Source of the DNA: a virus
DNA: 40,297 bases
Direction: 5' to 3' (one strand)
IMG/VR virus record: IMGVR_UViG_3300022204_000007
Coordinates: 1 to 40,297 of that record
The notes below the pieces were generated by a model. The model did no database searches. It was given only the letters and a program-made list of their open reading frames with translations, and was not told the origin of the DNA. Made by a program: the position numbers and the translations under genes. Positions 1 to 40,203 of this stretch are shown in pieces. Positions within the stretch are counted from its first letter, which is position 1. Every line of letters starts with the position of its first letter.

Positions 1-25
1 CCCACCCTTCCCCCCCCCCTAAGCA
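1..25. other. C-rich tract at left end
   Basis: The window opens with a C-rich stretch that includes ten consecutive C at 10-19. Together with the C-rich right end (40271-40297) it would form one polypyrimidine tract of about 50 nt if the molecule is circular. The opposite strand then carries several G-runs able to form a G-quadruplex. It lies in the divergent region between the two gene arms, so it could be an assembly break, a packaging or end site, or part of an origin; the sequence alone does not decide. Confidence 0.5.
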
Positions 26-46
26 TTCCCAGCGAGCGAAAAGGGC

Positions 47-80
47 TAGACCCAGGCCGCGCATAGGCTATGCTGGGGGT
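47..80 (+). promoter_or_regulatory. Candidate promoter of the left operon, with palindrome over the -10
   Basis: TAGACC at 47-52 and TATGCT at 69-74 are separated by 16 nt. The -10 lies inside a near-perfect palindrome GCATAGGCTATGC (61-73), which could be an operator. The same -35-like hexamer TAGACC recurs before the 1665 gene at 1598-1603. A hairpin begins at 81, about where transcription would start. Confidence 0.4.
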
Positions 81-96
81 GCCCGGTGGAACGGGC
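81..96 (+). promoter_or_regulatory. 5'-end hairpin with GGA loop
   Basis: GCCCG-GTGGAA-CGGGC: a 5-bp perfect stem with a six-base loop containing GGA. It starts six nt after the candidate -10, so it would sit at the very 5' end of the mRNA, and it is followed directly by the Shine-Dalgarno GAGGAG at 98-103. It is one member of a family found in all leaders of this genome. Confidence 0.5.
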
Positions 97-107
97 TGAG
101 GAGCACC

Positions 108-263
108 GTGGTTCGACTCTACCCGCTGGCTGTGCTCACTCCTCGCCGCCAGCGAGGATCCACCCCGCCCCGGACGGGGAGAGGCAGAAGGGCCCGACTG
201 CCGCACCGGGGGTGTGCGGCTTCCATCTGTGTTGCCGCGTGGATGCGGCTGAGGAGGTCCTGA
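108..263 (+). CDS. Possible small Arg-rich protein, 51 aa (uncertain)
   Basis: A GTG at 108 is preceded by GAGGAG with a 4-nt spacer (CACC), exactly the ribosome site used by the gene at 1930. The reading frame ends in TGA at 261-263, overlapping the ATPase ATG as TGATG, the coupling style of this genome. The 51-aa product is rich in Arg and Pro and has no recognisable domain. It contains the hairpins at 200-220 and 234-249, so the region may instead be an untranslated leader. Composition resembles a shadow frame, which keeps confidence low. Confidence 0.35.
   Translation: MVRLYPLAVLTPRRQRGSTPPRTGRGRRARLPHRGCAASICVAAWMRLRRS
200..220 (+). repeat. Leader hairpin, copy 1 of a repeat
   Basis: A 7-bp stem (GCCGCAC / GTGCGGC) closes a G-rich loop. 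The same hairpin with its flank GGCCCGAC recurs at 2730-2761, after the gene ending at 2722. Both copies lie in leaders upstream of a GGA-loop hairpin and a start codon. Neither is followed by a T-run, so neither is a classical intrinsic terminator. Confidence 0.55.
234..249 (+). promoter_or_regulatory. GGA-loop hairpin before the ATPase start
   Basis: GCCGCG-TGGA-TGCGGC: a 6-bp stem, with a G.U closing pair, around a UGGA tetraloop, ending just before GAGGAGG and the ATG at 263. The tetraloop is the same as that of the 3781-3796 hairpin although the stem sequence is quite different. Confidence 0.5.
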
Positions 264-1267
264 TGGGATTCGTGATTGCGCCGGCCACGAAGGACGGCGC
301 CAAGCTGCGCTTCCTGCTGTCCGGCCCGCCGGGCAGCGGGAAGACGTACAGCCTGCTGTCAATGACCGAGGCTCCCGGCTTCGGCCGCCGAGTAGTGATC
401 GACAGCGAGCACGGAAGCGCCAGCAAATACGCCGACCTGTTCAGCTTCGACACCCTGCAGCTCCCCGACCCACACCCCGCCACGTACGTGCAAGCGATCC
501 ACGCCTGCGAGGACGCGGGCTACGACACCATCGTGGTGGACGGCCTCACGCACGCCTGGCAGGCGTGCCTCGAGCTGGTGGACGCCTGGGCGCACAGCCA
601 CAAGGGCGACTCGCACGGAGCCTGGCGAGACGTCAGCCCGCTCTGGCGAGACCTCCTCGACACCATCTTGCGGTCGCCGGCGCACGTCATGTGCTCGGCG
701 CGCGCGAAGACTGAGACGGTGCGCGAGGAGTACGAGGACCGGGGCCGCACGAAGACTCGAATCATCCAGCTCGGGCTGGCGTCGATCCTGCGGGACGGCG
801 CAGAGCACGAATTCGACGTCGCCCTGATGCTCGACGGGGACCACGTCGCCGAGGTGCGCAAGAGCAGATGCCGTGAGCTCGTCCAGCCGGTGCCCATGCC
901 GGGCGCCGAGTTGGGGGCAATGCTGCTGGCGTGGGTCACGAACAACACGCCGCCCCGCACCTGGGAGACGGACGGGCCATCGTTCGTCGCCGCACTGGTT
1001 GGGCTCGTGCCAGACAGCGTGGATCTGGCCGAGGCCGGCGGCGTCGCCGAGCGGGCGCTGGTCTCGCTGCTCCATAGCATGCAACGAGGGGCGCCCAGCA
1101 CGATGCGGCCCGAGCAGCGCGACGGACTGCTTCACTGGCTGGGCGCGGCCGGCAAGGCGAGGTGGGACGCCGCGGTGGCGGCAGAGGTGCGGCGCCTCGG
1201 GCCGCCAGACGAGGACCCCAACAACGGCGACGAGACGTGCGGCGACAGCGACCCCGCAGACCAGTGA
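263..1267 (+). CDS. Sak4-like RecA-fold ATPase (phage recombination/replication NTPase)
   Basis: The 334-aa protein has a Walker A GPPGSGKT at residues 21-28 and a Walker B TIVVDG at about 89-94, and the overall pattern of phage AAA/Sak4-type nucleotide-binding proteins: short N-terminus, P-loop, a 'VIDSEHGSA' segment and a later 'MCSARAKTE' segment. Such proteins work with single-strand annealing or exonuclease partners in phage recombination; here a YqaJ-type nuclease lies at 6566-7312. ATG 263 was chosen because GAGGAGG lies 5 nt upstream; an in-frame extension to 86 would cover leader hairpins. The C-terminal ~90 residues, acidic at the end, are not recognised. It overlaps the next gene as TGATG. 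Confidence 0.85.
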   Translation: MGFVIAPATKDGAKLRFLLSGPPGSGKTYSLLSMTEAPGFGRRVVIDSEHGSASKYADLFSFDTLQLPDPHPATYVQAIHACEDAGYDTIVVDGLTHAWQACLELVDAWAHSHKGDSHGAWRDVSPLWRDLLDTILRSPAHVMCSARAKTETVREEYEDRGRTKTRIIQLGLASILRDGAEHEFDVALMLDGDHVAEVRKSRCRELVQPVPMPGAELGAMLLAWVTNNTPPRTWETDGPSFVAALVGLVPDSVDLAEAGGVAERALVSLLHSMQRGAPSTMRPEQRDGLLHWLGAAGKARWDAAVAAEVRRLGPPDEDPNNGDETCGDSDPADQ

Positions 1268-1461
1268 TGGGCACGCCTGAACCACGCTCGCGCTTCTACC
1301 CGCAGCCGTGCCTCTCTGAGTACTGCGGGCGGGGCGTCTGCCCTCGCAGCTGCGAGCACCTCGCCGAGCTGCTCGACTTCAAGCGGTGGCTGCGGGCCAC
1401 CAGGGCGAAGCGGCCCGATCCTATCTACTGCCCCACCTTCTGGGAGCGCGGCGACCTCTAG
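1267..1461 (+). CDS. Small Cys-rich protein, 64 aa
   Basis: ATG at 1267 overlaps the ATPase stop (TGATG), so translation is probably coupled. The 64-aa product has five Cys (CLSEYCGRGVCPRSC near residues 16-30, plus a Cys in YCPTFW near the C-terminus) and one His, a pattern that could bind zinc. I do not recognise the family. Its position directly after the Sak4-like ATPase suggests a role in the same early or recombination module, which is inference only. GC at third codon positions is high, as in neighbouring genes. Confidence 0.65.
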   Translation: MGTPEPRSRFYPQPCLSEYCGRGVCPRSCEHLAELLDFKRWLRATRAKRPDPIYCPTFWERGDL

Positions 1462-1546
1462 CCCGCGCCCGCGCCGGCCCTGGCCCGCCCCTCCAACACG
1501 CCCTCACGCACGTCGTAAGGCTCGCATGAAATTGTGGGCCTAGAGC

Positions 1547-1586
1547 CCCAGCCCAAACCGGCATCACCGGGCCAGTTGTTTTTTTT
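1547..1586 (+). terminator. Possible intrinsic terminator after the ATPase operon
   Basis: A GC-rich stretch that can pair only weakly (CCGG-CATCA-CCGG, with flanking GCCC/GGGC) is followed by GTTG and then eight T at 1579-1586. Such a T-run is striking in this GC-rich genome. The stem is short, so this may also be just an AT-rich promoter upstream region. Confidence 0.4.
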
Positions 1587-1597
1587 GCATAAAATAC

Positions 1598-1630
1598 TAG
1601 ACCCCATTACGCTGGGGCCTTATAAGGGAT
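1598..1630 (+). promoter_or_regulatory. Candidate promoter of the 1665 operon with palindromic -10
   Basis: TAGACC (1598-1603), a 17-nt spacer and TATAAG (1621-1626). The -10 lies in the perfect palindrome CCTTATAAGG (1618-1627), and the spacer holds a 5-bp inverted repeat CCCCA / TGGGG (1602-1617). The arrangement suggests a repressor or activator site over the promoter. The rest of the gap from 1462 holds the T-run described separately and nothing else I recognise. Confidence 0.5.
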
Positions 1631-1650
1631 GTGCAGGTTGGATCCTGCAC
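1631..1650 (+). promoter_or_regulatory. 5'-end hairpin with GGA loop
   Basis: GTGCAGG-TTGGAT-CCTGCAC: a perfect 7-bp stem with the loop UUGGAU, starting four nt after the -10. It is followed by TTGAGGAGG and the ATG at 1665. Stem sequence is unrelated to the other leader hairpins, but the GGA loop and its position are kept. Confidence 0.6.
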
Positions 1651-1664
1651 TTGAGGAGGACGCG

Positions 1665-1919
1665 ATGAACACCTGTGAGACTACTGGCCAGCCCATTGAG
1701 CAAAAGGGTGGGCGCGGGCGCCCGCGCCGCTTCGCCAACCCCGAGGCCCAGCGCCTCGCCGCCATCCTGGCCGAGGCCGGCGACCTCATCCTGGCCCTGG
1801 GCCAGGATGACGGGTTCACCGTCGAGGCCCGTCGCGCCCTGCGGCGCCGCCTCAACGAGCTGACGAACCTCGCCCCGCTGTCCCTGACCACCAAGGCGGC
1901 CATCGCCGCGCGCAAGTAG
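1665..1919 (+). CDS. Small CxxTGxPI / GRP-motif protein, 84 aa
   Basis: ATG 1665 follows a strong GAGGAGG. The protein begins MNTCETTGQPIE, then has RGRPRRF and an Arg/Leu-rich helical C-terminal half (RRALRRRLNEL). It is clearly related to the 90-aa protein at 35440-35712 on the other strand: both share C-x-x-T-G-x-P-I, GRP, 'A[KQ]RL', and a final 'A.RRRL.EL..LA' segment. The C..TG.PI...GRP pattern resembles small nucleic-acid-associated or zinc-binding motifs, but this copy keeps only one Cys. Function unknown. Confidence 0.7.
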   Translation: MNTCETTGQPIEQKGGRGRPRRFANPEAQRLAAILAEAGDLILALGQDDGFTVEARRALRRRLNELTNLAPLSLTTKAAIAARK

Positions 1920-1929
1920 GAGGAGCACC

Positions 1930-2220
1930 ATGGGCGCTGACACTTTCTTGACCAGGTCGCGCGGGCGCAACGTGGCCGAGGCGTTCCACGCCGCCGTCGA
2001 GCGGGCGCGCTACGAGGACGGCCACGCCGGGTACACGGGGACGATCGCGGAGAAGTCCTCATGGACCGTGATTCAGCCCGCGGCGGGCGAGTCCCCCGAG
2101 GATTGCGCGAACCGGCTGCTGGACGACGACGACCGGCGCATCGCCGACAAGTGGGGGCCTGCGGGCGCCATCAAGGTGGGCGACGGCGACTGGCTGTTCT
2201 TCGGCTGGGCGTCCTCGTAG
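1930..2220 (+). CDS. Conserved-looking small phage protein, 96 aa
   Basis: ATG 1930 follows GGAGGAG with a 4-nt CACC spacer, 10 nt after the previous stop. The protein is acidic, with 'GHAGYTGTIAEK' in the middle and 'DKWGPAGAI...FFGWASS' at the end, a pattern I associate with small uncharacterised phage and plasmid proteins. No catalytic motif, membrane segment or Cys cluster is visible apart from one Cys near residue 59. Its stop codon (TAG 2218-2220) immediately precedes the structured leader of the next gene. Confidence 0.7.
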   Translation: MGADTFLTRSRGRNVAEAFHAAVERARYEDGHAGYTGTIAEKSSWTVIQPAAGESPEDCANRLLDDDDRRIADKWGPAGAIKVGDGDWLFFGWASS

Positions 2221-2227
2221 GGAGGAT

Positions 2228-2341
2228 GGGGGCGGCCGCCCCCTCTGCCGCCTGCACCCCAAGGCGGCAGAGGAGACGGCCGGCGCCACGCCGGGCCGCA
2301 CACCGGGCCAGGGATGGCCCAGCACAGAGGAGACCGACAAC
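2228..2341 (+). ncRNA. Structured mRNA leader, copy 1 (upstream of the 2342 gene)
   Basis: In order: a 16-bp palindrome with CGGCCG at its centre (2228-2243); a 10-bp hairpin with arms 2243-2252 and 2263-2272 (arm CTCTGCCGCC); a hairpin 2277-2298 with arms CGGCC/GGCCG and GGC/GCC; a hairpin 2305-2320 (GGGCCA-GGGA-TGGCCC); then AGAGGAGAC and the ATG at 2342. The same architecture recurs at 3704-3811 with compensatory changes, which is good evidence for a folded RNA. There is no promoter in the gap, so it acts within a longer transcript. Role (translation control, processing, attenuation) unknown. Confidence 0.7.
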
Positions 2342-2722
2342 ATGGGCCGCAAGTACGACCAGCAGGACCCGCACCCCCCAGCCCCCGCCATCTGCCACCT
2401 GCGGTGGCGCCAGCGCCGCAGCTCGACCGGTGCGGCCGTCCAGGTCAGCGACACCGGCCGCCCGGTCTGCTACGAGGCGCACGCCCCGCATGGAGCTACC
2501 CTGCGGGTCTACGCCCCCGCCGAGTGGGACGGGACCACCTACACCTACCGCAGCTCGCTTAGGACCGGGTGGCAGTGTGTCGTCCTGCTGGGCGACGAGG
2601 AGTACCGCTCCACCTGGTGGAACTGCGCGGCGCACGCGATGCTTTGGGCCGAGGAGGTCGCCCGGCTCCCTGGGCGCCACACCTGGACCAGCCAGAGCGA
2701 GGACGAGGAGCTGTTCGGCTGA
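2342..2722 (+). CDS. Hypothetical protein, 126 aa
   Basis: ATG 2342 lies 10 nt after AGAGGAG, at the end of structured leader copy 1. The protein is rich in Trp and Tyr, has no membrane segment, and includes 'ICHLRWRQRRSSTGAAVQV' and 'TWWNCAAHAMLWAEEVARLPG'; the last part looks like an amphipathic helix. I do not recognise a family. Sharing a leader RNA with the DUF932-like gene at 3812 suggests the two are controlled together. The repeat hairpin at 2738-2758 follows its stop. Confidence 0.6.
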   Translation: MGRKYDQQDPHPPAPAICHLRWRQRRSSTGAAVQVSDTGRPVCYEAHAPHGATLRVYAPAEWDGTTYTYRSSLRTGWQCVVLLGDEEYRSTWWNCAAHAMLWAEEVARLPGRHTWTSQSEDEELFG

Positions 2723-2737
2723 GGAGCCCGGCCCGAC

Positions 2738-2758
2738 GCCGCACCGGGGGTGTGCGGC
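2738..2758 (+). repeat. Leader hairpin, copy 2 of a repeat
   Basis: Same 7-bp stem and loop as the hairpin at 200-220, with the same GGCCCGAC flank on its left (2730-2737). It lies 15 nt after the stop of the 126-aa gene and before a new promoter. It could help end the upstream transcript, although no T-run follows. Confidence 0.55.
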
Positions 2759-2769
2759 CTCCCCGCCCC

Positions 2770-2803
2770 TGAAAAAGTAGTTCCCTGAAATGAAAAGTAG
2801 TCC
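2770..2803 (+). repeat. Direct repeats upstream of a promoter (possible operator)
   Basis: TGAAAAAGTAGTTCC (2770-2784) and TGAAAAGTAGTCC (2791-2803) are imperfect direct repeats about 21 bp apart, two helical turns, so a protein could bind both from one face. They are A-rich in a GC-rich genome and the second runs into the -35 region of the next promoter, as an UP element or an operator would. Confidence 0.45.
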
Positions 2804-2833
2804 ACTGCGGCGCTTTGGGTGCTAATATCCTGA
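2798..2833 (+). promoter_or_regulatory. Candidate promoter of the 2885 operon
   Basis: An extended -10 (TG at 2820-2821, then TAATAT at 2823-2828) is the clearest part. TAGTCC at 2798-2803 resembles the TAGACC boxes of two other promoters, but the spacing of 19 nt is long. A hairpin follows at 2834. Confidence 0.4.
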
Positions 2834-2865
2834 GTGTGCAATGGAGCACGCGGCCAGGGATGGCC
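2834..2865 (+). promoter_or_regulatory. Two tandem GGA-loop hairpins in the 2885 leader
   Basis: GTGTGC-AATGGA-GCACGC (2834-2851, 6 bp with one G.U) is followed without a gap by GGCCA-GGGA-TGGCC (2852-2865, 5 bp). Both loops contain GGA. The first starts five nt after the -10; the second precedes the start ATG at 2885 by 19 nt. The second matches 40183-40196 on the other strand base for base. Confidence 0.6.
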
Positions 2866-2884
2866 GAGCAACGAGGAGCCCGAC

Positions 2885-3169
2885 ATGACCACGACCACGA
2901 CCATCATCAGCGACATGACCTTCCTCCGCACCTGGAAGGAGGGCGACGTCAAATCCGCGACCAGCCGCCTCGCCACGAGCCTGGCCCTGCTGGAGGCCGA
3001 GGTGGCCTGGGCCAGCGCCGACCTGGAGGCCGGGCGCGACTACGCCGGAGCCTGCCTCGTCGGTCGGGTCCAGGGGGTCGAGGCCGACCGCGCCTCCCTG
3101 GCGGTCGCCCGCGCCGAGCTTCGCACGGTCCTGTTCGCCATCGAGCGCATCGAGGAGTCCTCCAAGTGA
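2885..3169 (+). CDS. Hypothetical helical protein, 94 aa
   Basis: ATG 2885 lies downstream of ACGAGGAG and of the two GGA-loop hairpins; an in-frame extension to 2834 would run through those hairpins and was rejected. After a Thr-rich start the product is almost wholly helical in character, with long Ala/Glu/Leu runs and probable coiled coil (residues ~20-94). There are no Cys clusters or membrane segments. It ends in GTGA, overlapping the next gene by 4 nt, so it heads a coupled operon of small proteins. Function unknown. Confidence 0.6.
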   Translation: MTTTTTIISDMTFLRTWKEGDVKSATSRLATSLALLEAEVAWASADLEAGRDYAGACLVGRVQGVEADRASLAVARAELRTVLFAIERIEESSK

Positions 3170-3366
3170 GCGCGCAGCAGCAGAAGCCCACCAAGGTCGC
3201 CCGAGGCCCCGTGAAGCCGGCGTGGTCTGGCTGGGAGTGTCAGGAGTGCGGGCACCGCTTCCGCACCGTGCGCGCGGCCGAGCGGGCCTCCATGGACGGC
3301 TGCCCGAAGTGCGGAGGGGTGGACGTGGACCTGTCCGCGACGGCCCCGCTCTGGTGGACGCTGTGA
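3166..3366 (+). CDS. Zinc-ribbon protein, 66 aa
   Basis: GTG 3166 overlaps the previous stop as GTGA. A basic N-terminus is followed by a two-knuckle zinc ribbon: CQEC near residues 25-28 and CPKC near 47-50, about 20 residues apart, with a hydrophobic C-terminus (APLWWTL). Such small ribbons usually bind nucleic acid or a polymerase or nuclease partner. The downstream gene is also Cys-rich and overlaps it as GTGA, so the two may act together, though that is inference. Confidence 0.65.
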   Translation: MSAQQQKPTKVARGPVKPAWSGWECQECGHRFRTVRAAERASMDGCPKCGGVDVDLSATAPLWWTL

Positions 3367-3701
3367 GCGGGTCGCACGGCATCGCGGCCGGCGCCCTCTG
3401 CACCGACGACGGCGGTGGCACCTGCACCGTCTGCGGGGTCGCCATGACGCTGTGCGACTCCTGCGGCCGCGTCGGCTACCACTGCACCTCGTGCAGGTAC
3501 AACGACGAGGGCCCCACCGTCCTCGCCCGCGCCGGCTTGAGCCTGGGCGAGGAGGACTGGTCGCCGACGGCCTGGCAGGTGCGCCTCGCCAGCGGCAAGG
3601 TCGCCTACGACATCAGCGACCGGGAGTCGGCGGATCTCGCGGAGGCCCTCAACCGCTGGGGCGTGACCTGGACCGCCATCGAGACGGCGGGGGACTGGTA
3701 G
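3363..3701 (+). CDS. Multi-CxxC zinc-binding protein, 112 aa
   Basis: GTG 3363 overlaps the previous stop. The N-terminal half has C near residue 13, then CTVC, CDSC and CTSC pairs within about 26 residues plus a His (GYHCTSC), enough to bind two zinc ions. The C-terminal half (SPTAWQVRLASGKVAYDISDRESADLAEALNRWGV, residues ~70-105) looks like a separate alpha/beta domain. I do not recognise the family. The TAG stop is directly followed by structured leader copy 2. Confidence 0.6.
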   Translation: MSGSHGIAAGALCTDDGGGTCTVCGVAMTLCDSCGRVGYHCTSCRYNDEGPTVLARAGLSLGEEDWSPTAWQVRLASGKVAYDISDRESADLAEALNRWGVTWTAIETAGDW

Positions 3702-3703
3702 GA

Positions 3704-3811
3704 GGGGGCGGCCGCCCCCTCTGCTGCTCGCGCGCCGGGCAGCAGAGGAGACGGCCGGCAGCTTCGCCAGGCCGCACACCGGGCCATGGATGGCCCACAG
3801 AGGAGACGAAC
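3704..3811 (+). ncRNA. Structured mRNA leader, copy 2 (upstream of the 3812 gene)
   Basis: Same order of elements as 2228-2341: palindrome with CGGCCG centre (3704-3719); hairpin with arms 3719-3727 and 3739-3747 (CTCTGCTGC / GCAGCAGAG); hairpin 3752-3774 (CGGCC/GGCCG and GGC/GCC, loop AGCTTC); hairpin 3781-3796 (GGGCCA-TGGA-TGGCCC); then AGAGGAGAC and ATG 3812. Against copy 1 the first stem shows a C-G to U-A exchange on both arms, while loops differ freely. As in copy 1 it begins right after a TAG stop. Confidence 0.7.
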
Positions 3812-4888
3812 ATGGTCGACCTTCACACCGCGCGCAACATCCTGGGGCGCCGCATCGAGCAGGGCCGGTCTGAGCAGACCGCCGTCATCCGGCGGATGCT
3901 CGACCAGCAGCCGGCCGACATGATGGTGCAGCGCCGCAGCCTCCGCTTCGGCGCGGAGGGCGGGCGCCTGACCACCAACGTCGATGGGGCGCCGCGCCTC
4001 CACCGCCACGCGCTGGCCCAGCTCGCCAGCGATAGCGGCATCATCACCCCCACCACCGTCACCAAGGCGGCCGAGGTGGGCCCGGTGGCCACCGAGGCCC
4101 TGGTCGGCTTCCTCAACCGCGTGTTCGGGGAGGCCCTCCCCGAACAGCGCCGCCTGGTCCGCAGCGTGGACGGCGAGGTCCGCGGCTACCTGAGCGACCG
4201 CTACCGGCGCATCGACTCGGCGCCCATCCTGGAGGCGTTCATCAGCGGGGCCCAGGCGCGCGGCGCCGTGCCCATCACCGGCCGCGCGAGCGACATCCGC
4301 TGGGGGTTCACCTGGGCCCGCTCGGAGCTGCTGGAGGTCAACGGGGAGGCCCTCATCATCGGCCTCCGCATCAGCAACTCGGACTTCGGGGCCGGGGCGC
4401 TGGATCTGCGCGGCTTCGTGGAGCGGCTCATCTGCGCCAACGGGATGACGACCGAGTCCGCGCTGCGCCAGGTCCACCTCGGCCGGCGCCTGAGCGACGA
4501 CATCGCCTGGAGCGACCGCACCATGCAGCTCGACACCGAGGCGCACGCCAGCGCGGTCGGGGACGCCGTGCACCACCTGCTGGACGACCAGCGGATCGCA
4601 CAGCAGCTCGCCACCATCGAGGACGCCGCGCAGGACGAGATCGACGGCGAGCGCGAGGTCAAGCGCCTGGTCGCCGGCCAGAAGCTCGGGCGGGAGGAGG
4701 GGGCGGCCGTGCGCGAGATCTACCGCTCGGCCGACGTCTCCAAGGTCCCGGCGGGCAACACCCGCTGGCGCCTGGCGAACGCCATCAGCCTGCTGGCCGG
4801 GCAGGCCCCCGACGCGGACAAGCGCGGGGACCTCGAGCAGCTCGCCGGCAACGTGCTCCAGGGTGCCACCCAGGCGACGGCCCGATGA
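3812..4888 (+). CDS. DUF932-like phage/plasmid protein, 358 aa
   Basis: ATG 3812 follows AGAGGAG at the end of leader copy 2. The middle region carries the pattern of DUF932-type phage and plasmid proteins: 'GYLSDRYRRIDSAPILE' (~residues 118-134), 'GLRISNSDFGAGAL' (~180-195) and 'ERLICANGMTTES' (~200-215). The last third is Gln/Glu/Arg-rich and helical. The biochemical role of this family is not established; members occur in mobile elements and phages. It is the largest + strand gene and ends in ATGA, overlapping the next gene. Family assignment is from remembered motifs, not a search. Confidence 0.7.
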   Translation: MVDLHTARNILGRRIEQGRSEQTAVIRRMLDQQPADMMVQRRSLRFGAEGGRLTTNVDGAPRLHRHALAQLASDSGIITPTTVTKAAEVGPVATEALVGFLNRVFGEALPEQRRLVRSVDGEVRGYLSDRYRRIDSAPILEAFISGAQARGAVPITGRASDIRWGFTWARSELLEVNGEALIIGLRISNSDFGAGALDLRGFVERLICANGMTTESALRQVHLGRRLSDDIAWSDRTMQLDTEAHASAVGDAVHHLLDDQRIAQQLATIEDAAQDEIDGEREVKRLVAGQKLGREEGAAVREIYRSADVSKVPAGNTRWRLANAISLLAGQAPDADKRGDLEQLAGNVLQGATQATAR

Positions 4889-5151
4889 CCACCAGGGTCG
4901 TGCTCGTCGGGCGCAACGGCGTGGCGCGCGCCTGGTCCCGGCTGACGTTCGACGCCTGCCGGGCACTTAGCGAGGCGCGGCGAGCAGGGCTCGACGGCGA
5001 CCTCCGCGGGCACGTTCAGCTCGCGCTGGCGGACGAGGCCTGGGCCTCCATCCCCGAGCTGGCGTCGGCGGCGGCGACCTTCCTTCACCTCCTCCTCCGC
5101 GAGGTCGAGGTGGAGCGCGACAAGCGCGCCGCCGCCCTCGCCGAGCCCTGA
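4885..5151 (+). CDS. Hypothetical small helical protein, 88 aa
   Basis: ATG 4885 overlaps the DUF932-like stop as ATGA, so it is probably translated from the same message. The 88-aa product is Ala/Arg/Leu-rich, begins with a short beta-like stretch (TTRVVLVGRNGVARAW) and ends in a helical, charged tail (LLREVEVERDKRAAALAEP). One Cys, no motif. Its TGA overlaps an ATG (TGATG at 5149-5153) that could open the possible gene 5151-5498. Confidence 0.6.
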   Translation: MTTRVVLVGRNGVARAWSRLTFDACRALSEARRAGLDGDLRGHVQLALADEAWASIPELASAAATFLHLLLREVEVERDKRAAALAEP

Positions 5152-5498
5152 TGTTCAACGGCTGCACCGCGGGCAGCAGCGCCACCCCAGGGCGCACAAC
5201 CTGGGTCCCGCCTGGGGGGGCGTGCCCCAGGCCCGGCCGTGCCCGTGGGGCGGCTGGTGCTCCTCGCCTGGACGTGGAGGTGACCAGGGGCGGCCCGCTG
5301 CCAGAGTGCGGGGACCGACCGGTGGCGGGACCACCGTGGTGCGGGGATCCCCGGTGGGCCCGCACGAGCGCCAGCCGGGGGTCGGACGCAGGGCGTCTGC
5401 GCGAGCGGGTGGGAGGCCCGCTACTTCCCCACCGTAGTGCTCTGGTGATATTGTGGCCACGCCGGGTGGATCCCCGGCAGAGGAGGAGGACTCGATGA
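5151..5498 (+). CDS. Possible gene, 115 aa (uncertain)
   Basis: This 343-nt gap between clear genes holds one open frame. ATG 5151 overlaps the previous stop (TGATG) and the TGA at 5496-5498 overlaps the next ATG (ATGA), the coupling expected of a real gene here. Third positions are mostly G or C for the first ~80 codons. Against it: the product is Pro/Arg/Gly-rich with no recognisable fold, and its 3' end contains a candidate promoter and the GGA-loop hairpin of the next gene. The stretch also holds a 7-bp hairpin CCTGGGG / CCCCAGG near 5214-5234, so it may be a non-coding control region. Confidence 0.35.
   Translation: MFNGCTAGSSATPGRTTWVPPGGACPRPGRARGAAGAPRLDVEVTRGGPLPECGDRPVAGPPWCGDPRWARTSASRGSDAGRLRERVGGPLLPHRSALVILWPRRVDPRQRRRTR
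5446..5460 (+). promoter_or_regulatory. Candidate extended -10 promoter of the 5495 operon
   Basis: TG-A-TATTGT at 5446-5454 fits an extended -10; no good -35 is visible, the nearest being TTCCCC at 5425-5430. The 8-bp palindrome GTGGCCAC (5453-5460) follows directly. The hairpin at 5461 begins six nt after the -10, the same spacing as in the other leaders. Confidence 0.4.
5461..5478 (+). promoter_or_regulatory. 5'-end hairpin with GGA loop
   Basis: GCCGGG-TGGATC-CCCGGC: a perfect 6-bp stem with GGA in the loop, followed at once by AGAGGAGGAGG and the ATG at 5495. It has the same position and loop motif as the hairpins at 81, 1631 and 2834, with an unrelated stem. Confidence 0.6.
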
Positions 5499-5791
5499 CC
5501 GAGAGCAACAACCCGGACGGCTGGAGGGTGACCGCGTCGCCCACCGGCCCACTGCCGCCCAGTACCATCCGGCCCCACGAGACGTTCGTCCTGCTGGCGT
5601 CCTCGGTGGAGGACGGCCCGGTCCCGGTGGACGTCGTGATCTGCCGCAACAGCTCGCTGGCGAACGCCATCGTCGGCGAGTACTACCCAGACCACCCCAC
5701 GCGCATCGTGCGGCGCCGCCTCAGCGTCCTGGGCGTGAGCTGCTACGTGTGGGTGCTCATCGTCTACCAGCAGCGGGCGGTGGTGCCATGA
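5495..5791 (+). CDS. Hypothetical protein, 98 aa
   Basis: ATG 5495 follows a very strong GAGGAGGAGG. The product starts with a polar stretch (TESNNPDGWRV) and continues as an alternating hydrophobic, probably beta-rich domain (ETFVLLASSV, PVDVVICRN, YVWVLIVYQQ). No known motif is visible. It ends in ATGA overlapping the next gene and heads the coupled operon leading to the YqaJ-type exonuclease, so a recombination-related or host-takeover role is possible but not shown. Confidence 0.65.
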   Translation: MTESNNPDGWRVTASPTGPLPPSTIRPHETFVLLASSVEDGPVPVDVVICRNSSLANAIVGEYYPDHPTRIVRRRLSVLGVSCYVWVLIVYQQRAVVP

Positions 5792-6165
5792 CGATCCTGG
5801 CGAGCGTCCCGATGGAGCGGGCCGTCCCCATCACGTTCGTCTTGAAGGACGACCACCTCCGCTACGCCATCACGGGCCCAGGCAGCCGGCCTGGGTTGGC
5901 GATGTGCGAGCGCGTGAACCTGCTCCGGGGCTCGCGCCGCGCCGCGTGGGTCGGGGACAGGCTGGAACTGGTCAGGACCGGCGAGACTAGGGAGATCAGC
6001 GAGGATGCGTGGGTGGTCTACCAGGGGCCGTCGAGGTGCGCCGAGGACTGCCTCGTGGCATCCGCGTCGTGCGTGCTGCCCGGCGGGCACCTCGGCCACC
6101 ACTTCGGCTTCGCCGTCGCGCCCGGCGGCGGCTGGGTCGGTCTGCTCTGGAGGTTCGAGACGTGA
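5788..6165 (+). CDS. Hypothetical protein, 125 aa
   Basis: ATG 5788 overlaps the previous stop as ATGA. The product is beta-rich in appearance: 'VPITFVLKDDHLRYAITGPG', 'WVGDRLELVRTGETREI' and a C-terminal part with Cys and His (CAEDCLVASASCVLPGGHLGHHFG, residues ~85-108) that could bind a metal. It ends 'GGWVGLLWRFET' and overlaps the next gene as GTGA. I do not recognise a family. Confidence 0.6.
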   Translation: MTILASVPMERAVPITFVLKDDHLRYAITGPGSRPGLAMCERVNLLRGSRRAAWVGDRLELVRTGETREISEDAWVVYQGPSRCAEDCLVASASCVLPGGHLGHHFGFAVAPGGGWVGLLWRFET

Positions 6166-6569
6166 ACCCCAACACCAAGCCCGGCCGCATCATGTTCGGC
6201 ATCCTGACCGACTCCATGGTCGAGCTGGTGGGCCCCACGCTGCGCGACTACCTGCGGCCCCTGACGTTCGCCTCCCTGCACACCAGGCTGGTCGATGCCG
6301 CCGCGGAGGGCCCGCAAGCGGTCTGCGACGAGCTGGCCGCGTTCGCCGCCGACGCCCAGCGTGAGTGGGGCAGGTGGGCGAGCCACGCGCTCGGCGCGCT
6401 CGGCGTCGTGGACGCCGAGCTGGAGGGCCTCGCCCTGGGGCTGTTCGGGGCGCCCGCGCTGACGCCAGTCCTCATGCCAGACGGCCAGGAGGACCGGCGC
6501 TCCGAGCAGCGCCGCATAGGGCAGGCAGCCGGGGCACGCCTGGCCGCCGAGGACTGGTGGCGCTCGTGA
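6162..6569 (+). CDS. Hypothetical protein, 135 aa
   Basis: GTG 6162 overlaps the previous TGA (GTGA). The product is mostly helical, with an Ala-rich middle (LVDAAAEGPQAVCDELAAFAADAQREWGRW) and a charged end that includes 'DGQEDRRSEQRRIGQAAG'. No motif or membrane segment stands out. It lies directly upstream of, and is coupled to, the YqaJ-type exonuclease, where phages often carry a single-strand annealing or accessory protein; this one does not visibly match such families. Confidence 0.6.
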   Translation: MNPNTKPGRIMFGILTDSMVELVGPTLRDYLRPLTFASLHTRLVDAAAEGPQAVCDELAAFAADAQREWGRWASHALGALGVVDAELEGLALGLFGAPALTPVLMPDGQEDRRSEQRRIGQAAGARLAAEDWWRS

Positions 6570-7312
6570 GTCTCGACAGGCGCCGCGCCGAGTGCGTCAC
6601 GGGCACCGACATCGGCCGCATCCTGGGCCTGTGCCCAGCGTCGTGGGGCGGGCCCGATCAGGTGCTGGCCGAGAAGATCGGGCTGCGCCACCAGCTTGAC
6701 GAGGAGCCCGGCGAGCTGGGGGTCGGGTCGGCAGCAGAGGAGTGGATCGCCGCGAGGTGGTCCCTGGAGACCGGCCACACCATCCGGCCGGCCGGCTTCG
6801 AGCTGCACCCCAGCGTCGCGCACGTCGGCGGGACGCCCGACTTCCGCGTGGTGTCTGGCCCGCTGCTCGTCCGCGGCGCGGTCGTGGAGGTGAAGACGAA
6901 CCTCCGGGGCGTCCGCGTCCTGCCTCCAGACGGGACCATCGCTACCTCCGAGTCGCTACCCGGCCGGCGCCACAACCTCGCGCAGGTGCTCTGGTACGCG
7001 GGGATGGACGAGGACCTCGTGAACGCCGAGCCGCGCTACTGCGGCGCGCTGGTGGTCGCGAGCTACCCGGCAGCCATCGCGAAGTGGTGGCCCAGCATGG
7101 ACGCCCGCGAGCGTGAGGTGGTGGCCCGGCTGGTGGGCCGCCTAAGCGTGCTGCGCTGGTATCCGGTGCCGCATGACCCAGGCGCCATCGCGTGGCTGTA
7201 CGCGCGCGGCCTGGAGTGGTGGGCGCGCTACATCGACGGCGCGGCTGCCGCGACGAGCGACCAGGCGTGCGACACCTCACCGCACGTCGCCCGCACCACT
7301 ACCGTCAGGTAG
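6566..7312 (+). CDS. YqaJ-type viral recombinase / exonuclease
   Basis: The 248-aa product has the PD-(D/E)XK plan of YqaJ and lambda-exonuclease-like phage enzymes: 'TGTDIGRILGLCP' (residues 12-24), 'GSAAEEWIA' with acidic residues near 58-59, 'GGTPDF' with Asp92, and 'VVEVKT' with Glu108 and Lys110, then 'HNLAQVLWYAGM'. Such enzymes digest 5' strands to start single-strand annealing recombination. GTG 6566 was chosen from its GTGA overlap with the previous stop. It probably works with the Sak4-like ATPase at 263. It is the last + strand gene, and its 3' end overlaps the opposing lipoprotein gene by 85 bp. Confidence 0.8.
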   Translation: MSLDRRRAECVTGTDIGRILGLCPASWGGPDQVLAEKIGLRHQLDEEPGELGVGSAAEEWIAARWSLETGHTIRPAGFELHPSVAHVGGTPDFRVVSGPLLVRGAVVEVKTNLRGVRVLPPDGTIATSESLPGRRHNLAQVLWYAGMDEDLVNAEPRYCGALVVASYPAAIAKWWPSMDAREREVVARLVGRLSVLRWYPVPHDPGAIAWLYARGLEWWARYIDGAAAATSDQACDTSPHVARTTTVR

Positions 7313-32351: not shown

Positions 32352-33902
32352 CTAGCCCTCGACGGCGTGCGCCACGCGGGCGCGGATGATGTCGCAGTAG
32401 GCCGGCTCGCGCTCGATGCCGATGCAGGCGAAGCCCTCGCGCTCGCAGGCGACGAGCGTGGTGCCGCTGCCGGCGAACGGCTCAAGGACCACGCCGCCCG
32501 GCGGAGTCACAAGGCGGACCAGCCAGCGCATGAGGCGCACCGGCTTCACCGTGGCATGTGTGTTGGTCCGGGCAGACTCCGTGCGCCCGCCGTCGCGCAG
32601 GGCGTCGGCGCCCTGCGCGACGGCGGGCGCCAGCCCATCACACCCAGCGTCTCGCTCTGACCGAGCGGGCTTCGGGCATGCGTAAACGTTCGCCGGGAAA
32701 CGACCTATCGGCGAAGCCACCATAGCCGGCGGCGGCGCGTCATCGTCTTGCGGCCCCGGCCACGACGCGTCGCCATACGCGATCCTGCACCCGTCGATGT
32801 TCAGCGCCCCGGTGCCGTGCGCAAGCACCGTCTCAACGACCGTGCCGATCAGCGGCTTGCGAGCCAGGATGGCGGGCTCCTGCGCTGGCTTCAGCCCGGT
32901 ACCCCAGCCGTCCCACTGCTTGGCGTCGTCAGTGACAGGATCGCCCTTCGGCGTCCGGGTGTAATTCGGCCCTCCCATGCTTCCGTTGTTGCTCACGACA
33001 GGTCCAGCCTGGCCCCTAAGGTGTCCCTCGACTGCGTCCATGGCCTTCGCCACGTCGAGGCTCTTCGGAAAGCCGTTGTAGTAGAGCCATGAGATGGTGT
33101 CTCTGATCTCGAAGCCGGCATCCTCAAGCGCAACGGCGAGGCGGTGCACCGTGCGCGTGCCGCCAAAGGCGACAACGTGCCCGCCAGGCTTGAGCACGCG
33201 GAGCGCCTCGGCGGCGAACTCCGGCCCAGGCGGCAGCGCGTCCCACGCCTTGCCCATGAAGCCGATGCCGTAGGGCGGGTCGGTCACAATGGCGTCGATG
33301 CTGCCGTCCGCGATCGTCCGCATGACCTCGACGCAGTCGCCGCAGGTCAGCGCGTGGCGCCCCAGCGGCACCACCTCGCCGGGCTGCGTGACGGGCTCGG
33401 CGGGTGGCGGGGGGACGTCATCGTCGCCGGGGCGGTCGTCGTGCGGAGCGGGTGGCGCGGGGGGCTCTGCGAGGGTCAGCGAGAGGGATGCCTCGTCGAA
33501 GCCGAGGGCCAGCGGCGCGAAGTCGGTCACGAGGTCGCCCAGCTCCACGCGCAGCGCCGGCGCGTTCCACCCGCCCCGGTCGTACGTGGCGTTGTCGGCG
33601 AGGGCGTAGGCGCGGGCCTCGCGCGCGGAGCCGGCGAACGGCACCGCAGCGATGGTGGTCCACCCGAGGCGGCGCGCAGCGAGGAGGGTGCCGTTGCCCG
33701 CGATGACCACGCGGTCGGCGGGCCGGTATACCACCGGCTTCTGCTGCCCGTGGCGCTCGAGGGACGCTGCGACGGCGGCGACGGACGCCTCGGGGTGGGT
33801 GCGGAGGTTGGCGGGGTCGAGCTCGAGCGTGGCGACGTCGACGAGGAGCCCGTGGAGGGCGGTGGCCACGTGCGGCGCGGCGGGTGGGCGGCGCTTGCTC
33901 AT
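32352..33902 (-). CDS. ParB-like domain fused to a DNA methyltransferase (beta class)
   Basis: ATG 33902 overlaps the lipoprotein stop (ATGA); 516 aa. Residues ~15-110 form a ParB/Srx-like domain ('RTHPEASVAAVAASLERHGQ', 'VIAGNGTLLAARRLGW'). The methyltransferase has DPPY at 208-211 before the SAM-binding FAGSGTT at 476-482, the beta order, and the family's 'GWGTGLKPAQEPAILARKPL' and 'HGTGALNIDGCRI' segments. It would methylate adenine N6 or cytosine N4 and protect phage DNA from host restriction; target sequence not predictable. Its place in the packaging module may let it mark DNA late, near packaging. Confidence 0.85.
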   Translation of the reverse strand: MSKRRPPAAPHVATALHGLLVDVATLELDPANLRTHPEASVAAVAASLERHGQQKPVVYRPADRVVIAGNGTLLAARRLGWTTIAAVPFAGSAREARAYALADNATYDRGGWNAPALRVELGDLVTDFAPLALGFDEASLSLTLAEPPAPPAPHDDRPGDDDVPPPPAEPVTQPGEVVPLGRHALTCGDCVEVMRTIADGSIDAIVTDPPYGIGFMGKAWDALPPGPEFAAEALRVLKPGGHVVAFGGTRTVHRLAVALEDAGFEIRDTISWLYYNGFPKSLDVAKAMDAVEGHLRGQAGPVVSNNGSMGGPNYTRTPKGDPVTDDAKQWDGWGTGLKPAQEPAILARKPLIGTVVETVLAHGTGALNIDGCRIAYGDASWPGPQDDDAPPPAMVASPIGRFPANVYACPKPARSERDAGCDGLAPAVAQGADALRDGGRTESARTNTHATVKPVRLMRWLVRLVTPPGGVVLEPFAGSGTTLVACEREGFACIGIEREPAYCDIIRARVAHAVEG

Positions 33903-34162
33903 TGGCGGCAGATGTTGCTCTCGACGTAGCCCCAGCCGACGAAGCACAGGCCGTCCACGCAGGCCCCGCCGGGCCCGTACGCGCAGCAGACGCCCGTCAC
34001 GTCGCCCACCGTGCAGATGTACTCAGGCGCCGCGTCCACCGGAGCGGACGCGGCGTCCGCGACCGCCGAGTCCGCCTCAGCGTCGGGGCCGGGCGCGTCG
34101 CAGTCCTCACCGCACCCGACTGCGAGCAGGGCGAGGAGGACGGCGGTGGCGCCGGTGGTCAT
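33899..34162 (-). CDS. Lipoprotein, 87 aa
   Basis: ATG 34162 overlaps the small terminase stop (ATGA). The signal peptide 'TTGATAVLLALLAVGC' ends in a lipobox, so Cys would be lipidated. The mature part starts with an Asp/Ala-rich linker (CGEDCDAPGPDAEADSAVADAAS) and ends in a compact Cys-rich domain (six Cys within ~40 residues). Phage lipoproteins of this kind are often superinfection-exclusion factors that change the host envelope, but nothing here proves it. Its place inside the terminase block is odd; it may be a moron-type insertion even though it is tightly coupled. Confidence 0.7.
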   Translation of the reverse strand: MTTGATAVLLALLAVGCGEDCDAPGPDAEADSAVADAASAPVDAAPEYICTVGDVTGVCCAYGPGGACVDGLCFVGWGYVESNICRQ

Positions 34163-40171: not shown

Positions 40172-40182
40172 GGATCTCCTCC

Positions 40183-40196
40183 GGCCATCCCTGGCC
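40183..40196 (-). promoter_or_regulatory. GGA-loop hairpin before the replication genes
   Basis: On the - strand GGCCA-GGGA-TGGCC, identical to 2852-2865 on the + strand, ends directly before GGAGGAG and the ATG at 40171. The same motif thus opens operons in both arms. Confidence 0.6.
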
Positions 40197-40203
40197 AGCC
40201 AGC

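Follow-up and report, generated by a model that had tools for sequence, protein, structure and literature searches.

A GGA-loop hairpin at the ribosome sites of unrelated phage genes: a candidate CsrA/RsmA-type operator

Why should a phage place nearly the same structured RNA in front of two genes that have nothing in common? The question is raised by an IMG/VR virus record of 40,297 bases and 72% GC (the whole stretch analysed, here called the window), which carries genes for terminase, portal, head protease, helicase loader, RNA ligase and RuvC. The original prediction placed two leaders at 2228–2341 and 3704–3811, each after a TAG stop and ending in the ribosome site of the next gene, and took the entire 110-nt RNA to have been copied as a control module. 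The positions are confirmed: leader A fills the interval 2221–2341 on the plus strand between a TAG at 2218–2220 and the ATG at 2342, leader B lies at 3702–3811 on the same strand between a TAG at 3699–3701 and the ATG at 3812, and the 3' end of both is AGAGGAG followed by the ATG. The proteins served are unrelated (BLASTP E = 2.1), as had been claimed. Leader A precedes a 126-amino-acid protein for which no family was found (2342–2722, plus strand), and leader B a 358-amino-acid protein (3812–4888, plus strand) that matches phrog_1362, of unknown function, at E 5e-37 and was previously described as DUF932-like. The 96-amino-acid protein encoded before leader A (1930–2220) is widely mobile and of unknown function, with relatives in Gordonia, Rhodococcus and Caulobacter phages, haloarchaea and actinobacteria.

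The two leaders share 85% identity (91 of 107 aligned columns, columns 11–117) and have four hairpins in common. They differ in 3 of 54 paired columns as against 13 of 53 unpaired ones (Fisher p = 0.007), which bears out the earlier observation that loops vary while stems are kept, and the C-G to U-A double change reported for the first long stem is found again on the aligned stems (CTCTGCCGC/GCGGCAGAG in A versus CTCTGCTGC/GCAGCAGAG in B). A second stem pair has gone from C-G to U-G, with one side changed, and the remaining pairs are invariant except for one outer pair at an alignment gap; two copies with one double change amount, taken alone, to weak covariation. Both leaders are predicted to fold more stably than their shuffles (z = -3.7 for A and -3.2 for B). 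The minus strand folds better still (-76 and -66 kcal/mol for A and B versus -66 and -60 kcal/mol for the plus strand), because an alternative long stem contains C.A mismatches that are G.U pairs on that strand, and the predicted best fold of the 5' part of A differs from that of B.

A third copy of the last 40 nt or so of the leaders, at 2847–2885 (the second repeat family in the window), pointed to a smaller module, in which a hairpin with GGA in its hexaloop is followed within a few nucleotides by a GAGGAG ribosome site (SD). When hairpins were sought before an SD and start codon, eight genes were found to have such a module, with differing stems. On the plus strand these are GCCCG-GUGGAA-CGGGC with GAGGAG at 81–103, before a small ORF at 108–263; GCCGC-GUGGAU-GCGGC with GAGGAGG at 234–257, before an AAA_24/Sak4-like gene that begins at ATG 263; GTGCAGG-UUGGAU-CCTGCAC with GAGGAGG at 1631–1659 (ATG 1665); the module of leader A at 2305–2332, which consists of GGGCC-AGGGAU-GGCCC (2305–2320) and the SD AGAGGAG (2326–2332); CGGCC-AGGGAU-GGCCG with GAGGAG at 2851–2878 (ATG 2885); the module of leader B at 3781–3805, which consists of GGGCC-AUGGAU-GGCCC (3781–3796) and AGAGGAG (3799–3805); and GCCGGG-UGGAUC-CCCGGC with GGAGGAG at 5461–5487 (ATG 5495). 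The eighth, UGGCC-AGGGAU-GGCCG with GGAGGAG, is on the minus strand at 40176–40197, before a gene that begins at ATG 40171. The 2851 module forms part of a tandem of two GGA-loop hairpins (2834–2866), the upstream one being GUGUGC-AAUGGA-GCACGC at 2834–2851 on the plus strand. From these sequences, the functional unit appears to be the last 40 nt or so, the GGA-loop hairpin with its SD, present in eight copies and not two.

The GGA is in the loop of all eight window modules, and a search that was blind to the loop, accepting any hexaloop before an SD and start, found six sites in the window, six of six with GGA, versus 0.16 sites (0.02 with GGA) in shuffled windows. The stems consist of 5–7 mostly G-C pairs. 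All 35 of 35 cells are paired, with double changes in all five pairs and a covariation score of 1.08 versus 0.25 when shuffled, the pairing percentage being biased since the sites were picked as hairpins. Four of the eight loops have the A of ANGGAN and are closed by C-G, the others being GUGGAA, GUGGAU, UUGGAU and UGGAUC, and the base after GGA is U or A. From the GGA of the loop to that of the SD the distance is 12–17 nt in seven modules and 8–11 nt in the minus-strand copy. The small ORF at 108–263 (51 amino acids, GTG start), which has its own GGA module, ends in a TGA that overlaps the ATG at 263 of the Sak4-like gene, and the two are likely to be translationally coupled. The window also contains a second duplicated non-coding hairpin, GCCGCACCGGGGGTGTGCGGC, at 200–224 and 2738–2762, with 96% identity and a terminator- or leader-like appearance; one copy is shortly 5' of the module at 234 and the other directly after the 126-amino-acid gene.

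The rest of the leader behaves differently. Its first element is a perfect palindrome, GGGGGCGGCCGCCCCC, at 2228–2243 in A and, in the same form, at 3704–3719 in B, which is strand-neutral and could have a role as DNA or RNA. Stem 1 follows at 2243–2272 in A (CTCTGCCGCC/GGCGGCAGAG) and 3719–3747 in B (CTCTGCTGC/GCAGCAGAG, with the double change already mentioned), and then stem 2, with a one-base bulge in each copy, at 2277–2298 in A (CGGCCGGC..GCCGGGCCG) and 3752–3774 in B (CGGCCGGC..GCCAGGCCG), all on the plus strand. The palindrome and these two stems are found only at leaders A and B, and no relatives of the 5' two-thirds of the leaders were found among the 2.9 million viral contigs of IMG/VR. 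In an alternative long stem, a palindrome arm pairs with the later CGGCCG, an arrangement that is mutually exclusive with the separate hairpins; an RNA switch is thus conceivable, but conservation does not back it. It was also considered whether all 110 nt serve between cistrons as one RNA for antitermination (put-like) or for processing (as an RNase III site), of which the 3' hairpin is one part. Four hairpins in a row between genes, after a stop codon and more stable than shuffles, would suit such a role, as would the finding that an SD and start follow only part of the module matches elsewhere. However, the 5' part has neither relatives nor an Rfam match, the fold is not conserved between A and B, and six more copies of the 3' hairpin occur without any 5' part, which makes this reading most improbable. 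The idea that the 110-nt RNA was copied as a control module therefore survives in part: a structured RNA element does lie before unrelated genes, but the whole leader does not hold as the unit, its 5' two-thirds being without relatives, duplicated once and inconsistent in its fold. We can guess that the 5' hairpins form a separate duplicated inter-cistron spacer with a role in processing or insulation; the 5' part may serve as a spacer, in RNA processing or as an operator in the DNA.

Could the palindromes act as DNA, as operators or protein-binding sites of the early region whose RNA folds are incidental? GGGGGCGGCCGCCCCC is a perfect palindrome that is identical in both leaders, and inverted repeats are equally palindromic in DNA; being the same in both copies, GGGGGCGGCCGCCCCC says nothing on RNA versus DNA. 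The GGA loop, in contrast, is asymmetric, lies in the sense of the gene and keeps a narrow spacing to the SD, the stems change while the loop and SD stay, and no sigma-70-like promoter was found in 1–7000. A purely DNA role is very improbable on this evidence.

The module is not confined to the window. A pattern of the GGCC stem with GAGGAG matched eight contigs, in seven of them directly before a start codon. GGGCCANGGATGGCCC was found in at least 119 stretches of IMG/VR versus 22 with the same stem and the permuted loop ANGAGT, which makes the GGGCC-ANGGAU-GGCCC hairpin at least five times commoner than this loop-permuted control, a control that is not dinucleotide-matched. Among the matches listed, an SD and ORF start follow the hairpin in 49 of 113 distinct contexts versus 2 of 20 for the permuted loop, and about half of the hairpin matches have no SD and start directly after them, some being terminator-like or in tandem. 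The second loop base is free (A51 T25 C24 G13), and the distance from loop GGA to SD GGA in other phages is 13–27 nt. The exact hairpin with AAGGAT, GGGCCAAGGATGGCCC, is present in 12 of 50,697 annotated phage records, always outside annotated genes, and the hosts are gamma-proteobacteria, with one host field blank (a Pradovirus). These records are seven Xanthomonas-type phages (including the Pradoviruses Titan-X and L13.2), two of Lana, and HRDY3, SFCi1 and Arash, or roughly five independent lineages. The hairpin is directly before an SD and ATG in HRDY3, SFCi1 and Ninurta and some 35 nt before them in Titan-X and L13.2, while in Lana and Arash no gene start was found close after it. The genes served are of many kinds, among them those for head and tape-measure proteins, nucleases, a holin and a dNMP kinase, a variety that suits a portable control element. 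Few bacterial chromosomes have the exact module (4 of 249 and 2 of 246 genomes), suggesting that it is not simply a common host operator sequence. When varied stems were sought within the contigs retrieved, GGA was only slightly in excess (8 of 163); of these non-selected GGA hairpins, 6 of 8 begin with A, and the base after GGA is mostly C or U and rarely G. Another pattern, GCAGAGGAGACGGCC, matched 52 contigs; none of the contexts examined was leader-like, and they were used as controls.

Five IMG/VR contigs (L073:3320, L075:3661, L088:3791, L117 at 4225 on the reverse strand and L165:4359) have a second GGA-loop hairpin after the first, with a differing, compensating stem. These stretches are not directly before a gene start, a terminator-like hairpin precedes four of the five, and no Rfam match was found for them; they are possibly phage-encoded small RNAs of the RsmZ/TwoAYGGAY kind.

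A stronger test of covariation than the varied-stem search left the outer stem bases free, only CCAAGGATGG..GGAG..ATG being fixed, at 67 distinct sites whose ORF has 40 amino acids or more or continues past the contig end. Watson-Crick pairing is seen at the first outer pair in 51 of 67 sites (shuffle mean 34, maximum 46 in 2,000) and at the second in 45 of 67 (shuffle mean 20, maximum 34 in 2,000), with all four Watson-Crick pair types present. By the third outer pair the figure is down to 24 of 67, from which a typical stem would have 4–5 pairs. A covariance model (R1), built from 66 modules of other phages and none from the window, recovered four of the eight window modules, namely those at 3781 (E 3.5e-5), 2305 (E 2e-4), 2851 (E 0.0012) and, on the minus strand, 40197 (E 0.023); it gave no further window site below E = 2, and its best hit on 569 kb of control contigs had E 0.034. 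No Rfam family, including TwoAYGGAY, CsrB and RsmX/Y/Z, matched the module or the leaders at the curated threshold. The original prediction was to be judged by covariation in relatives and by the occurrence of such leaders outside this genome; the 3' hairpin covaries in other phages and exists outside the window, whereas the 5' two-thirds has no relative. At the level of sequence, then, the evidence establishes the module itself, the eight copies in this genome, the compensation in their stems and the occurrence at gene starts of many other phages.

What could such a module do? We propose, with a probability of about one half, that it is a cis-acting translational operator controlled by the CsrA/RsmA family. 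A short mRNA hairpin just 5' of the SD would present GGA(U) in a hexaloop, and the SD, GAGGAG, would offer the second GGA 12–17 nt on (8–11 nt in the 40197 copy). We infer that a CsrA/RsmA-family dimer would contact the loop through one face and the SD through its other face and so keep ribosomes off, as at E. coli glgC, the model case, in which the dimer is anchored at the loop site and excludes ribosomes at the SD site (PMC7652899). The SELEX consensus of CsrA is RUACARGGAUGU, in a six-base loop closed by AC/GU on short stems; the RsmE structure has an ANGGAN hexaloop, and one CsrA dimer bridges sites 10–63 nt apart (PMC7652899). A hairpin of RsmZ-2 with AAGGAU binds RsmA (PMC4066749). Compared with the short stems that SELEX selected, those of the window are more stable. 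Phage genes that bear the module would be translated in step with the amount of free CsrA available during infection, and the modules, being numerous on abundant phage mRNA, would in addition sequester CsrA.

The CsrA would probably be supplied by the host, as no csrA gene was found in the phage record and the host protein would have to be the ligand. Phage-encoded CsrA was rejected as a general ligand, csrA being present in 1 of 50 module-bearing records versus 0 of 50 controls. Xanthomonas phage PhiXhv-12 (PV764601.1, 103560–103724; L364) has both its own CsrA homologue and a GGGCCAAGGACGGCCC hairpin. Hints of the host of the window phage are contradictory and include actinophage-like genes, halophile and mixed matches and a protease of proteobacterial-phage type, with proteins that are not acidic. 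No relatives of the leaders or the neighbouring genes were found in IMG/VR by protein and DNA searches, no close relative of the phage was found in IMG/VR, annotated phages or species genomes, and the terminase had no match in annotated phages or species genomes. CsrA would also be compatible with an actinobacterial host: of 246 Actinomycetota genomes sampled evenly across the phylum, 51 have CsrA (PF02599), more than expected; the assumption that Actinobacteria are without CsrA is wrong for a fifth of the sampled genomes. Elsewhere in the window, a ParB-like domain is fused to a DNA methyltransferase (32352–33947, minus strand), and across the whole window CTAG is strongly depleted (13 versus 101 expected) and GGATG doubled (79 versus 37 expected), a skew that is possibly a restriction or recognition bias of the host.

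Two other explanations of the hairpin were considered. The hairpin could work without protein in translation or mRNA stability, by opening the SD region, blocking 5' decay or docking the 30S subunit through the AAGGA of the loop and the anti-SD. It sits exactly at the SD before unrelated genes, GGA belongs to the SD core and the window stems are stable, all of which this explanation would account for. However, anti-SD pairing would favour G after GGA, where G is rare, variation at the second loop base is easier to reconcile with ANGGAN than with AAGGAG, and a hairpin that merely stabilizes would need no GGA loop. We regard this explanation as unlikely; the variable second base, together with U or C following GGA, agrees more closely with CsrA than with another anti-SD contact. 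The other candidate is an operator for an RNA-binding protein of the phage itself, an autogenous translational repressor comparable to the coat protein of MS2 or to RegA/gp43 of T4. In its favour, the genome has eight copies, most of them in one arm, and many window genes have no family. However, phages that differ widely, also in their gene sets, have the loop motif in common, which is an indication of a shared host factor, and no known RNA-binding repressor was recognised among the proteins scanned, so that a phage-encoded repressor seems quite unlikely.

We tentatively suggest, at somewhat less than even odds, that many kinds of phages use a common uncatalogued leader module to place chosen genes under host CsrA/RsmA, with phage mRNA titrating CsrA and host physiology timing the infection programme; the window, with eight copies, would be an extreme case of its use. 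Reports exist of csrA genes in phages (PMC7366521) and of an effect of csrA on prophage release (PMC12371270), and no description of CsrA-type operators as a recurrent feature of phage mRNA was found in the literature searched, which largely did not extend to subscription papers. CsrA is a global regulator of host metabolism and lifestyle. If the module binds it, many uncharacterised phage genes would acquire a testable control mechanism, and the timing of translation during infection would become accessible by simple reporter fusions. Even with another ligand, a structure-conserved, SD-coupled hairpin of unrelated phages merits a family model.

Among known systems, the put RNAs of phage HK022 are also duplicated structured leaders of roughly 70–100 nt in one phage genome, a likeness to leaders A and B that is by description only, as is the difference that put acts on RNA polymerase near early promoters. 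The SAS/ESAS of cluster K mycobacteriophages are a fixed 13-mer, GGGATAGGAGCCC, at gene starts (PMC3203893, PMC12699233). Like SAS, the module is a short repeat at many phage gene starts that overlaps the ribosome site in the non-structural half of the genome; unlike SAS, which has no supported hairpin, its stems vary and compensate. Identity with SAS was rejected, as GGGATAGGAGCCC with up to two mismatches has 0 matches in the window. TwoAYGGAY (RF01731) and the sponge RNAs of the CsrB/RsmZ type share AYGGAY/ANGGA loop hairpins and are predicted or known to bind CsrA, but they are small non-coding RNAs, while the modules are mRNA leaders with no match to Rfam. The closest comparison is with the two-site operators of CsrA/RsmA, such as the E. 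coli glgC leader and RsmE/hcnA. Known examples of these belong to host genes, whereas the module is a repeated element of phage genomes and a candidate only, and half of the window loops have no leading A. A C-G-closed ANGGAU loop is present in the other half and in the modules of other phages, where it belonged to the search pattern. Like those operators, the module has a GGA hexaloop just 5' of the SD and a second GGA in the SD at a spacing within the bridging range.
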